Of a stretch of DNA of 64,000 nucleotides, positions 39,744 through 48,490 are shown one piece after another. The stretch comes from Aquitalea magnusonii (GTDB lineage: Bacteria > Pseudomonadota > Gammaproteobacteria > Burkholderiales > Chromobacteriaceae), in assembly GCF_002217795.2 (NCBI RefSeq), contig NZ_AP018823.1:3224001-3288000 (forward strand). Direction: 5' to 3'. The notes beneath the pieces are model-generated. The model worked only from the letters and a program-made list of their open reading frames with translations. It was not told where the DNA came from and made no database searches. Position 1 is the first letter of the stretch. Each line of letters begins with the position of its first letter. The translations under genes were made by a program, and so were the position numbers.

Positions 39744-39875
39744 GCATCCGCTTACGCGGATGATGGTTTGCATGCCGCTTCCGCGCGGCGAACGGGAAGG
39801 AGGGCTTGCCTGGCCAAGCCCTCCTTCACCTCCAAGGCCACCCCGCAAGCATGGCCTGCGGCTGCCCGACAGGGC
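39744..39875. repeat. Alpha element copy 1 (island repeat)
   Basis: About 132 bp starting with the ATCCGC/GCGGAT dyad, then CCGCTTCCGCGCGG and a 13-bp perfect hairpin (39796-39808 with 39815-39827, loop CCTGGC), ending in a CCCGACAGGG segment. It is followed directly by the last bases of a gamma element (GCGTCGGTGCGGT), so its gamma partner is almost wholly deleted. Confidence 0.9.
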
Positions 39876-39905
39876 TGCGTCGGTGCGGTGCTTATCTGAT
39901 CAAGA

Positions 39906-40155
39906 ACACCTGTCGGAGCCGCCCCAGTCCCGTCAGCGCGAGCCGACACAGGCGTGCCGCTCAGGGTTTTAAGCGGTCGGCTGTCCGCAGCGGCGCGACG
40001 CTAGCGCGCCGCAAGTTCCGGCCGCGCCCTAAGCGGTGCGGCTGGGGCGGGGTTTCGACGCGCTGCGGGTCGCCTTTTCTTTGGGTACTTTCTTTTGGCG
40101 AAGCAAAAGTAAAGTACCTCGACGGCGGGGCGAGACCCGCGAAGTTGTTTTTTGT
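39906..40155. repeat. Beta element copy 1
   Basis: About 250 bp, nearly identical to 41907-42155. It contains a long bulged hairpin at 40084-40118 (GGTACTTTCTTTTG against CAAAAGTAAAGTACC). That core resembles a dispersed repeat I recall from several proteobacterial genomes. No credible protein is encoded. Confidence 0.88.
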
Positions 40156-40186
40156 TTTGATCTTGGCGGCGATAACCCAGTGTGGG

Positions 40187-40318
40187 AATCCGCTCACGCG
40201 GATGATGATTTTCAGTGCCGCTTCCGCGCGGCGAACGGGAAGGAGAGCTTGCCTGGCCAAGCCCTCCTTCACCTCCAAGGCCACCCCGGCAAGCATGGCC
40301 TGCGGCTGCCCGACAGGC
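40187..40318. repeat. Alpha element copy 2
   Basis: Same layout as copy 1. The main hairpin GAAGGAGAGCTTG/CAAGCCCTCCTTC has one mismatch. It runs directly into gamma copy 1. Confidence 0.9.
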
Positions 40319-40444
40319 CCCGCCCGGAGCGAGGCGCGCCTGAACTCGCGATTTGCTAACGTCAAATCGCTCAAACATTGCAGGCGCTTAACACCTCGCC
40401 CCGGCCACCCGTCGGCATGCTTGACGGGGCCACGGGGCGCGTCG
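40319..40444. repeat. Gamma element copy 1
   Basis: About 125 bp with two conserved hairpins: GCGATTTG/CAAATCGC (40348-40370, loop CTAACGT) and CCCGTC/GACGGG (40408-40428). Present again at 41593 and 42318. Confidence 0.9.
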
Positions 40445-40660
40445 ATACGGTACTTTCCCTATAAGCAAGGTCCTGCTCACCTTCCCCTTCGAGCAGTTTC
40501 CACCCCCTCCCCCCATCGCTACAGTGTCCCGCTGGTGCTCAACACACCCTCAACAGCGGCTGCCGCATCCGTTAGTCTTGCGGCATTTCTACGTCCATCG
40601 GTTTTGTCATTGTCAGTTTTTATGGACAATGCACAGCCTATGGTCGGGTAGCGCGCAGCC

Positions 40661-40780
40661 ATGCAATACCTGGGCAACCGGGAAAAACTGCGGGCCGTTA
40701 CTGTTGGCGGTGTTGAAGTGCCTGACCACCCTCTCAACAGGGGTGACTTTCAACGACTCAACAGAAGGCCATTTCCATGA
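40661..40780 (+). CDS. 39-codon leader ORF coupled to the BRO-like gene
   Basis: Starts MQYLGNREKLRAVTVGG and ends RRPFP. Its TGA overlaps the next gene's ATG (ATGA at 40777-40780), suggesting coupled translation. An in-frame TAG lies 9 bp upstream of its ATG; that TAG ends another tiny frame, MDNAQPMVG (40622-40651). From memory, very similar short sequences precede antirepressor/BRO genes in proteobacterial prophages, often mis-annotated as N-terminal extensions. Function unknown; a regulatory leader is the inference. Confidence 0.55.
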   Translation: MQYLGNREKLRAVTVGGVEVPDHPLNRGDFQRLNRRPFP

Positions 40781-41457
40781 CCAAACAACCCCCTTCACAT
40801 CCCCAACATCCCCCTCCCCTTTGCTTTTACTACCACGGTAAACCGCTGCATGTGCTGCACCACAACGACCAATGGTGGCTGCACAGCAGCGATGTACTGG
40901 CCGTCATTGGCCGTCGGCTGGGACGCCGCATCCAGCAATTACTGAGCGCCGATCCCAACACCGGCATCGCCCCGGTTGGCGATGAACAGCCGGAGTGCTG
41001 GCTTGCCACCGCCCTGCTGCGCGTCTTGCGTCGCAGCGGCAAGCCGCTGGCACGGCAGCTGCGAAACTGGTTGAACAGCGAGCTGCTGCCCGCGCTGGCG
41101 CAGTTGCCACCCGCTGCGCCACGTTGGGAGCAGGCTCTGGCACTGGCGGCGGAGGCCGGGGTCCAGGTGAGCCATGCAGTGTTGCAGGCGGTATTGACGC
41201 AGGGTACGCGGTGGCAGCATTCGCACTGGTTGCTGACGCTCGATTACACGCCCGACCACCCCTTGCGCCATGCGCATGGCCGCTTGCTGGGGCTGAACAG
41301 TTCGGCCACGCCCTTGCAGGCGCTGGCGCAGCAGATTGCCACTGCGCAGGGGATTGCCGCAGATAATGGTGAATTGCTGGTGCTGGCGTCAGCGTGTCAT
41401 CAGCAACTGCGTGGCCGTTTGCAGCGCCAGGCCCGGCGGGTGATGCAGGCGGGTTGA
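40777..41457 (+). CDS. BRO-N/antirepressor-like protein
   Basis: 226-residue protein. Residues about 14-110 fit the BRO-N/ANT pattern of phage antirepressors: FYYHGKPLHVLHHNDQWWLH, then a DVLAVIG segment, then LRRSGKPLARQLRNWLNSEL, which matches the usual kPxAkxFrxWvxxxVLP motif. The C-terminal 110 residues (VQVSHAVLQAVL, HAHGRLLGLNS, helical, Gln/Ala-rich) are unrecognised. The gene sits alone between two repeat modules, with no phage structural or integrase genes nearby. A DNA-binding regulator is likely, its target unknown. The start is fixed by coupling with the leader ORF; no strong Shine-Dalgarno is visible. Confidence 0.75.
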   Translation: MTKQPPSHPQHPPPLCFYYHGKPLHVLHHNDQWWLHSSDVLAVIGRRLGRRIQQLLSADPNTGIAPVGDEQPECWLATALLRVLRRSGKPLARQLRNWLNSELLPALAQLPPAAPRWEQALALAAEAGVQVSHAVLQAVLTQGTRWQHSHWLLTLDYTPDHPLRHAHGRLLGLNSSATPLQALAQQIATAQGIAADNGELLVLASACHQQLRGRLQRQARRVMQAG

Positions 41458-41462
41458 GTGGG

Positions 41463-41592
41463 AGTCCGCTGCGCGGATGATGATTTACATGCCGCTTCCG
41501 CGCGACGGACGGGAAGGAGGGCTTGCCTGGCCAAGCCCTCCTTCACCTCCAAGGCCACCCCAGCAAGCATGACCTGCGGCTGCCCGACAGGT
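41463..41592. repeat. Alpha element copy 3
   Basis: Begins 5 bp after the BRO-like gene's stop. The main hairpin stem GAAGGAGGGCTTG/CAAGCCCTCCTTC is perfect. Runs into gamma copy 2. Confidence 0.9.
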
Positions 41593-41717
41593 CCCGCCCG
41601 GTGCGAGGCGCGCCTGAACTCGCGATTTGCTAACGTCAAATCGCTCAAACAGCCAGCCGCTTAAAACCGCCGCAGCGCCACCCGTCGGCATGCTTGACGG
41701 GGCCCAGTGGGCGCGTT
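41593..41717. repeat. Gamma element copy 2
   Basis: Carries the same two hairpins as copy 1 (GCGATTTG/CAAATCGC and CCCGTC/GACGGG); the linker between them differs most. Confidence 0.9.
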
Positions 41718-41906
41718 GGTGCGGTGGCTTTCCTGCTGGGGAAATGCGTTTATTCGGTAGCGTTGCGCGGTGGATCGCCCCTTTGGGGCATCCACCCTAC
41801 GGGGTAGACGCGTAGGGCGGAAGCCCCGGCTTTACCGGGGCGTTCCGCCGCAAGACATCCATCGCCCAAAAATTTTGAAAGCAGCACAGTCATTTTCTGC
41901 TCTGAC
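41718..41906. other. Spacer with two long hairpins inside the right module
   Basis: Contains GGTGGAT-GCCCC/GGGGC-TCCACC (41769-41796) and GGCGGAAGCCCCGG/CCGGGGC-TTCCGCC (41816-41849, one bulge). No gene seen. The left module has only about 30 bp at this position. Confidence 0.7.
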
Positions 41907-42155
41907 ACACCTGTCGGAGCAGACCAATCCCGTCAGCGCGAGCCGACACAGGCGTGCCGCTCAGGGTCTTAAGCGGTCGGCTGTCCGCAGCGGCGCGACG
42001 CTAGCGCGACGCAAGTTCCGGCCGCGCCCTGGGCGGCATGGCTGGGGCGGGAATTCGACGCGCTGCGGGTCGCCTTTTCTTTGGGTACTTTCTTTTGGCG
42101 AAGCAAAAGTAAAGTACCTCGCCGGCGGGGCGAGACCCGCGAAGTGGCTTTTTTG
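41907..42155. repeat. Beta element copy 2
   Basis: Near-identical to copy 1; the internal bulged hairpin is at 42084-42118, exactly 2,000 bp from its counterpart. Confidence 0.88.
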
Positions 42156-42185
42156 TTGGTTTTCCGTTGGAAGGTACGGGTTAGA

Positions 42186-42317
42186 AATCCGCTACGCGGA
42201 TGATGGTTTAAGTGCCGCTTCCGCGCGGCAAACGGGAAAGGGATCTTTGCTTGGCCAAAGATCCCTTTCATCCCTAAAGGCCACCCAGCAAGCATGGCCT
42301 GCGGCTGCCCGACAGGG
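42186..42317. repeat. Alpha element copy 4 with compensated hairpin
   Basis: The main hairpin here is GAAAGGGATCTTTG/CAAAGATCCCTTTC (42236-42249 with 42256-42269): a perfect 14-bp stem whose sequence differs in both arms from copies 1-3, while the loop (CTTGGC versus CCTGGC) and flanks are conserved. Confidence 0.9.
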
Positions 42318-42442
42318 CCCGTCCGGTGTGAGGCGCGCCTGAACTCGCGATTTGCTAACGTCAAATCGCTCAAACAAAGCAGGCGCTTAACACCTCGCCC
42401 CGGTCACCCGTCGGCATGCTTGACGGGGCCCCTGGGCGCGTC
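42318..42442. repeat. Gamma element copy 3
   Basis: Same two hairpins as the other copies. It closes the right module. From here to the terminator at 42528 no gene is seen. Confidence 0.9.
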
Positions 42443-42527
42443 GGTGCGGTTGAAATTAGTCAGCATCTGCGGCATCTAGCCCAGTATCACTACCGGAACA
42501 GCCTCAGCCCAAACCCACACTTTCCAC

Positions 42528-47452: not shown

Positions 47453-48490
47453 TTGAGCACCCAGTCCCTCAGTTACCGTGATGCAGGCGTGGATATCGAC
47501 GCCGGCGACGCGCTCGTCGAAAACATCAAGCCCTATGCCAAGCGCACCATGCGCCCGGAAGTTCTCGGCGGTATCGGCGGTTTCGGCGCACTGGTGGAAA
47601 TTTCCAAAAAGTACAAAGAGCCCGTCCTGGTTTCCGGCACCGATGGCGTGGGCACCAAGCTGAAACTCGCCTTTGACTGGAATCGCCACGACACTGTCGG
47701 CATCGATCTGGTCGCCATGAGCGTGAACGACATCCTGGTACAGGGCGCCGAGCCGCTGTTCTTCCTGGATTATTTCGCCTGCGGCAAGCTGGATGTACCG
47801 CAAGCCACCGACGTGATCAAAGGCATTGCCGCCGGTTGCGAACAGGCCGGTTGTGCATTGATCGGCGGCGAAACCGCCGAAATGCCGGGCATGTACCCGG
47901 TGGGTGAATACGATCTGGCCGGCTTTGCCGTCGGCGTGGTGGAAAAAAGCCAGGTGATTACCGGCCGCACCATCGTGCCGGGCGATGTTGTCCTGGGCCT
48001 GGGTTCCAATGGTGTGCATTCCAATGGTTACAGCCTGGTTCGCAAGATCATCGACCGCGCCCAGCCGGATCTGGACGCCGCCTTTGATGGCGACAAGAGC
48101 CTGCGCGACGCCGTGATTGCACCGACCCGCATCTACGTGAAACCGCTGCTCAAGCTGATGCAGACCCTGCCGGTAAAAGGCATGGCCCACATCACCGGTG
48201 GCGGCATCACCGAAAACACCCCGCGCGTACTGCCGGACAATGTTGTCGCCCAACTGGATGCCAATAGCTGGGAGCTGCCCAAGCTGTTCCAGTGGCTGCA
48301 AAAGGAAGGCAATGTGGACAGCCAGGAAATGTACCGCACTTTCAACTGTGGCATCGGCATGGTAGTGATTGTGGCCGAAGAGCACGTGGCCGCCGCCACC
48401 GCCCTGCTGCAGCAGGAAGGCGAAACCGTACACCGCCTGGGCAGTGTGCGCGCCCGCAATGGTGACGAACACCAGACCCAGATTTCCTGA
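47453..48490 (+). CDS. purM: Phosphoribosylformylglycinamidine cyclo-ligase (AIR synthetase)
   Basis: Fifth step of purine synthesis. 345 residues, typical length, with the N-terminal [31 protein letters not shown] and [12 protein letters not shown] motifs. The start appears to be TTG 47453; no ATG or GTG fits upstream of the conserved N-terminus. purN follows after 93 bp. Confidence 0.96.

Follow-up and report, generated by a model that had tools for sequence, protein, structure and literature searches.

Downstream of ubiA in the chromosome of Aquitalea magnusonii lies what we read as an orphan immunity-type module resembling that of phage P1, composed of a C4-like RNA and a BRO/antirepressor-like gene, with the palindromic repeats on either side of it lying outside the regulatory mechanism; we put the probability of this reading at roughly 0.78. 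The module is found in a stretch of 64,000 nucleotides (contig NZ_AP018823.1, positions 3,224,001 to 3,288,000), hereafter the window, whose coordinates are used below and on whose forward strand all features of the locus are placed. The first-pass annotation of this DNA had centered on the repeats. These are real, but what lies at the heart of the locus is the P1-like immunity module, which that annotation overlooked. It was also aware of no named element with such a layout, whereas the c4-icd-ant operon of phage P1 provides a named model.

A C4-like RNA before a BRO-like gene

The RNA was recognized as a match to the Rfam family RF02221 (sRNA-Xcc1) at 40642-40735 (cmscan, 55.9 bits against a gathering threshold of 53), which ends 41 bases 5' of the start codon of the BRO-like gene; RF01695, the C4 family itself, gave no match at E values up to 1 between 39600 and 42600. 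Two segments of the RNA are complementary to two sites in front of the gene. The b' site in hairpin 2 (CTGTTGG, 40701-40707) faces the b2 target (CAACAG, 40759-40764), which is located at the ribosome-binding site, immediately 5' of an AAGG Shine-Dalgarno-like sequence, while the a' site in the 3' linker (GTGTTGAAGT, 40710-40719) faces the a2 target (ACTTTCAAC, 40746-40754). A second copy of the targets is present upstream of the RNA, where an a1-like leader site complementary to the linker (40537-40545) is followed by a b1-like site, again CAACAG, complementary to the loop of hairpin 2 (40551-40556). Between b1 and the RNA, a weak hairpin (40561-40588, fold of -11.4 kcal/mol) accompanied by a short T run resembles a terminator. 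Just 5' of the RNA, at 40608-40631, we also observed the palindrome CATTGTC..GACAATG, which recurs in near-identical form before the paralogue in locus L078 and could be an operator. The first-pass annotation had credited the interval between the repeats with two genes, of which the BRO-like gene stands; the other, a leader open reading frame (ORF) that we take to be 40524-40841, was rejected as a gene because it runs through the RF02221 match, leaving the RNA and one gene between the repeats.

This arrangement closely follows that of the c4-icd-ant system of phages P1 and P7 (RF01695, clan CL00128). In the P1 record, C4 occupies 48343-48419, a2 48423-48429 and b2 48452-48459, icd starts at 48470, and a1/b1 fall within 48255-48276; judged by its sequence, the P1 RNA carries b' in the loop of the second hairpin and a' in the 3' linker. 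Both systems therefore share the order a1/b1, RNA, a2, b2 before the ribosome-binding site and then the regulated gene. They also share the plan of the RNA, in which a closing stem encloses two hairpins, the second of them carrying b' in its loop, while a' occupies the 3' linker. The window differs in that its RNA matches RF02221 and not RF01695, that the BRO gene directly follows the RNA without an icd, that the locus is chromosomal, and that a BRO-N type protein takes the place of P1 Ant. In phages, b' of C4 partly covers the ribosome-binding site and RNase P releases the RNA from the transcript of the antirepressor, according to the accessible part of one report (PMC5320573). By analogy with P1, the RNA of the window may be processed from a longer transcript on which the leader copy a1/b1, the terminator-like hairpin, the C4-like RNA and the BRO/antirepressor-like gene would follow one another in a single direction. 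It would fold independently, its b' loop and a' linker could pair with a2 and b2 and so cover the Shine-Dalgarno region, and the resulting block of translation would restrict synthesis of the BRO protein to times when the RNA fails or is outnumbered.

The gene itself (40777-41457, 226 amino acids) was identified through its similarity to Bro-N profiles and its substitution pattern. Taken alone, the protein scores below threshold for Pfam Bro-N PF02498 (16.8 bits against a gathering threshold of 25.6, E 0.011) and has a PHROGs match described as 'anti-repressor' (E 8e-4). Ten of the 26 family members match Bro-N with an E value of at most 0.05 (1e-5 for the best), and hhalign of the family profile against true Bro-N proteins gave a probability of 95.2% over 97 columns (E 2.5e-8). 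Its relatives in the protein database come from Aquitalea wherever the genus is given, and three of them are called 'prophage antirepressor-like'; among sequences in the PDB there was a single match, at an E value of 0.86, which is not credible. The family thus points to a protein that is most likely a DNA-binding regulator of the antirepressor type. The ratio of nonsynonymous to synonymous substitution rates (dN/dS) against orthologues at the same site is 0.14 for genome G003 and 0.07 for G001 (stop codon excluded), values that suggest past selection on the protein. Phage ancestry of the gene is likely. A recent prophage remnant is not supported, as a tblastn search of 50,697 phage records with the protein gave no match, and a defence gene was rejected since the protein has no PADLOC match; Pfam scans of the gene likewise returned no transposase family. 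In three relatives a clustered regularly interspaced short palindromic repeats (CRISPR) array (RF01317), presumably of type I-F by its look, lies beside a BRO-family gene (G007, L064 1821-3051; G001, L098 2383-3660; G003, L099 2331-2718), and in L098 the BRO-like gene has no RNA match in front of it.

Pairing with the adjacent gene across loci

Support for the immunity-type module comes from the specificity of the pairing. Sixty-seven RNA loci had flanking sequence, and these were reduced to 52 non-redundant ones at 75% for permutations (51 or 50 for tests that required longer flanks). The mean longest perfect run between hairpin 2 and the translation-start region of its own locus was 6.6, compared to 4.6 for foreign loci (0 of 20,000 permutations, n=52), and the 3' linker gave 5.9 against 4.6 in the same region (0 of 5,000). 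The upstream leader behaved in the same way, both with hairpin 2 (7.2 own, 5.3 foreign) and with the linker (8.0 own, 5.2 foreign; 0 of 5,000 permutations and n=51 in each case). A control region at +60 to +210 was null with both hairpin 2 and the linker (843 and 1,081 of 5,000 permutations, respectively, n=50). Under a stricter rule, a terminator-like hairpin was found upstream of the RNA at 15 of 51 loci, with 1.3 expected and none of 50 in the control region.

The genes that follow the RNA are in line with this picture. RF02221 was detected in 24 of 101 relatives (over the cut-off in 23) and, in a sample of 398 genomes from across the phylum, in 58 (over the cut-off in 40). From two strictly filtered searches with 45 and 104 matches, we examined the 58 best by score, whose downstream ORFs of at least 60 amino acids numbered 85 (70 of them scanned, 40 singly). 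Of these 58 loci, chosen by score alone, 27 have an antirepressor-type gene downstream. At 13 of the 58 the gene belongs to the BRO family of the window, and at 14 (L046, L058, L067, L069, L071, L072, L118, L121-L125, L129 and L140) an ORF with P22_AR_N, AntA, Bro-N, KilA-N or Rha lies within 1.3 kb. Phages carry the same combination: blastn with one antirepressor-linked sRNA-Xcc1 retrieved 39 phage records, and in six of the nine inspected the next gene is annotated as an antirepressor or KilA-N gene (309 nt on in one of them), the other three showing a small ORF followed by a DNA-binding protein, a hypothetical protein, and no annotation at that place. These records were found with an RNA that already preceded an antirepressor operon, and hence illustrate the association and do not measure it.

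Both RNA families occur with paralogues of the BRO gene. Among 20 loci with a BRO gene or a repeat, nine paralogue loci of the genus have a genuine C4 RNA (RF01695, 63.7-70.3 bits, gathering threshold 45) before the BRO gene, in the very place that sRNA-Xcc1 occupies elsewhere. As other paralogues have sRNA-Xcc1 or no match, the protein family makes use of either of the two RNAs or, it seems, of neither. Sub-threshold c4-a1b1 matches were seen at several of the nine C4 loci and at five loci lacking C4 (L033, L110, L114, L115 and L116), and isrK-like ones at several loci. Pairing in both the loop (6-8) and the linker (7-8) is present in the C4-type copies L025, L092, L093 and L104.

Several observations weigh against the immunity-type module. 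At the locus itself, the hairpin at 40561-40588 is weak and absent from the scan with a terminator tool, and a promoter scan of the leader, uninformative for this organism, found none. The BRO orthologue in G001 contains an in-frame stop and that in G007 is truncated. In the pairing tests, the region of hairpin 1, used as a further control, showed a slight excess against the start region (85 of 5,000 permutations), and the own pairing of hairpin 2 was the highest or tied in 24 of the 52 loci. Among the C4-type copies, L108 and L112 pair in the loop only (8, across the start codon), while L102, L109 and L113 have no run above 6 in the loop or above 4 in the linker. Thirty-one of the 58 RF02221 loci showed no antirepressor-type gene, with unnamed or other ORFs found instead, one of them (L136) a SymE ORF. 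Finally, RF01695 did not match any of 20 RF02221 loci at E values up to 1, and RF02221 did not match P1 C4 at E values up to 10. Since the two models do not detect each other and share no clan (Rfam gives one for C4 and none for RF02221), we call sRNA-Xcc1 C4-like in its action rather than a C4 RNA, and do not claim common descent.

The flanking repeats and their link to BRO genes

Three repeat elements had been described around the gene in the first-pass annotation, and self-comparison confirmed their places, order and single orientation. The left side consists of a truncated alpha-gamma repeat that has lost its gamma part (39746-39873; blastn 95% to alpha-gamma positions 3-132), a beta repeat (39924-40153) and a complete alpha-gamma repeat whose 3' end is a long imperfect palindrome (40186-40451). 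On the right, an alpha-gamma repeat begins 4 bases 3' of the BRO stop codon (41462-41725) and is followed by a facing pair of hairpins with CTAC/GTAG ends (41769-41849, folds of -21.4 and -28.4 kcal/mol), which we take to be REP-like, and then by a second beta (41924-42153) and a second alpha-gamma repeat (42186-42450). The right beta matches the left one (94% identity, E 4e-99) and the right alpha-gamma copies match the left one (E 5e-93 and 2e-87) far above chance, and the offset between the two betas is indeed exactly 2,000 bp. As the gap from beta to alpha-gamma is about 33 nt in the left and right modules alike, the two elements form one unit, and the constant offset of both, which had been noted separately, therefore counts as one fact and not two.

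The window genome contains 30 alpha-gamma matches, query included (40 of 56 candidates scored), which merge into 12 clusters at a gap of 3 kb, and 15 beta matches, again with the query included. The alpha-gamma consensus folds into a chain of hairpins with a terminal long palindrome; 10 of its 69 pairs show two-sided compensation in 20 copies, but the copies fall into few flavours, so that these 10 changes represent few events. Repeats at most sites unlinked to BRO genes had been named as grounds for abandoning the connection, and this is not what was found: six of the seven BRO-family copies in the genome have an alpha-gamma repeat no more than 500 bp away (for the seventh it is 2.9 kb), and six of the 12 clusters have a BRO gene within that distance. 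Random placement would bring six of seven copies this close with a probability of about 2e-12, or of about 2e-6 if no more than one tenth of the genome were open to either element. Across Aquitalea, alpha-gamma was present within 1.6 kb at 21 of the 26 BRO loci examined, and two of the remaining five had less than 600 bp of upstream sequence to inspect. The alpha-gamma and beta repeats form a palindromic family, located between genes in Aquitalea and in its relatives, and stand beside most BRO modules of the genus. In the module proposed here they would probably provide homology for the gain, loss and copying of modules by recombination.

Whether there is a functional tie beyond this is less clear. 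BRO modules and repeats may be mere neighbours that share tolerant intergenic sites, an explanation that concerns the repeats only and is compatible with a P1-like module between them; we consider it possible but tentative. It agrees with the wider distribution of the repeats compared to BRO, and with the six of 12 clusters that have no BRO gene within 500 bp, two of which (L079, 5803-6328, and L081, 6267-7002) lie within 400 bp of a C4 RNA with no BRO match. The repeats are, however, similarly placed within each BRO subtype, where alpha-gamma is found 311-321 bp upstream on the opposite strand at several C4-type copies, and on the same strand at four sRNA-Xcc1-type copies (324-326 bp in three, 398 in the fourth), a regularity that common ancestry of the copies may explain.

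A repeat-borne mobile unit, in which the BRO protein would bind or spread the alpha-gamma palindromes and the RNA would restrain it, is an unlikely reading of the same proximity counts and of the observation, judged by eye, that in several copies the alpha end is near the gene or its upstream side. Its model would be the REP/RAYT systems, where palindromic intergenic repeats likewise lie next to a small gene family. The window differs from them in that its genome has no match to the Y1 transposase PF01797 (found in 5 of 14 control genomes), on which ground a RAYT partner for the repeats was rejected, and in that the BRO gene itself matches no transposase family in Pfam. Moreover, repeats and BRO genes occur apart. 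Genomes G002 and G006 lack a BRO match yet contain 12-13 repeats or more (repeat counts across relatives are lower bounds, with at most 12 candidates scored per genome), and gamma-like pieces persist in relatives where BRO is missing. RNA-BRO pairs, in turn, occur without alpha-gamma in a sister genus, which we take to be Chromobacterium: none of six BRO places examined there has an alpha-gamma match, though three have weaker beta-like pieces within 1.6 kb. Somewhat less probable still, and offered as speculation, is a 'BRO-tron' in which BRO genes controlled by C4 or sRNA-Xcc1 would have left phages and become an independent chromosomal family of repressible regulators that recognises alpha-gamma and copies itself among these repeats, the antisense RNA conferring immunity against extra copies.

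The first-pass annotation had pictured the gene as held between direct repeats and able to be lost or moved by recombination. The position of the gene and the existence of three states of the site across relatives agree with this; the similarities among the repeat copies do not. In the window genome the identity between the flanking alpha-gamma copies is 88-89%, below the 92-94% at which each matches some distant copy, so that they are not each other's closest relatives, contrary to what had been anticipated, and repeats and RNA-BRO pairs each occur alone. The reverse holds in G001, whose two flanking copies are 96% alike. Comparison of the site downstream of ubiA, as had been suggested, did uncover a genome with one module and no BRO gene: G004 has a single alpha-gamma/beta/alpha-gamma module, the beta of which is split by a 1.1-kb insert (L171, 2628-3760) that its transposase leads us to take as IS30-like. 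In G009 the distance from ubiA to the next gene is about 150 bp, with neither repeat nor BRO, whereas G000, G001, G003, G005 and G007 have BRO with repeats in varied decay (the right side is reduced to a short alpha piece in G003, and the G005 site was pieced together from two contig ends). The site sequences of G002 and G006 stop inside a repeat at contig breaks, and G008 was outside the comparison. The simplest reading is that the RNA-BRO module and a second repeat module were gained, in the common ancestor of the five, at a site already holding one module; loss of BRO in G004 could also account for the pattern.

sRNA-Xcc1 among described RNAs

The RNA of the window is detected by the same covariance model as sRNA-Xcc1 of Xanthomonas and Xylella. 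Going by the title of a 2011 paper by Chen, sRNA-Xcc1 is reportedly trans-acting, integron-encoded and controlled by HrpG/HrpX. The accessible parts of later papers describe it likewise as trans-acting and HrpG/HrpX-controlled (PMC12189769, PMC12444791), which differs from the action on an adjacent gene proposed here. One of them also reports that sRNA-Xcc1 precedes symE in the integron cassette found most widely in Xanthomonas, and mentions a divergent regulatory mechanism (PMC12444791). What could be seen of the remaining literature reports the discovery of sRNA-Xcc1 (PMC2996969) and lists RF02221 and c4-2 among revised families (PMC11701678), and a review of phage RNAs, in its accessible part, covers C4 without sRNA-Xcc1 (PMC12197685). 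Our literature search, with most subscription papers outside its reach, found no paper linking sRNA-Xcc1 to antirepressors or to C4 action. Many chromosomal C4-type RNAs, seemingly processed from longer transcripts, are known from the Group 1 small RNAs of Acinetobacter baumannii, which derive from C4; as far as the available text goes, these differ in carrying an RF01695-type motif and in their proposed targets, which are transcripts of incoming phages or other bacterial transcripts, whereas the partner gene in the window is adjacent (PMC5320573).

That sRNA-Xcc1 is mainly trans-acting on many targets, its match to the next gene being secondary, follows the existing description, yet it is very improbable in view of the locus-specific pairing with the adjacent start region at 51-52 loci and the null downstream control. 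The valuable point is the reading of sRNA-Xcc1 as C4-like, which proposes a testable function for an RNA discussed so far, in the accessible literature, as a trans-acting or virulence-linked small RNA and as integron cargo. If it is true, sRNA-Xcc1 acts on the gene next to it, on antirepressors in phages and chromosomes and likewise on ORFs such as symE. An sRNA-Xcc1 does precede a SymE ORF (Pfam E 2.4e-13) in L136 (1265-1586), where the loop CTGATAG faces CTATCAG before the start, and sRNA-Xcc1 may stand in for SymR in cassettes of this kind. The same reading would unite sRNA-Xcc1 and C4 in one functional class, which would fit a table that lists C4, isrK and sRNA-Xcc1 in one Xylella genome with no more than 400 bp between them (PMC12189769, a source seen in part), and would mean that phage-type immunity modules persist as dispersed chromosomal families beside palindromic repeats.

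Two further settings of these RNAs were observed. In the window genome, C4 RNAs also precede members of a protein family of about 100 amino acids (MTHQTTTPILPL...), with no BRO gene seen (L208, 3534-4005; L209, 4069-4589). In one relative, the RNA and a Bro-N gene (L118, 379-1585) lie near the transfer-messenger RNA gene on the opposite strand, a setting that suggests a prophage or island at ssrA.

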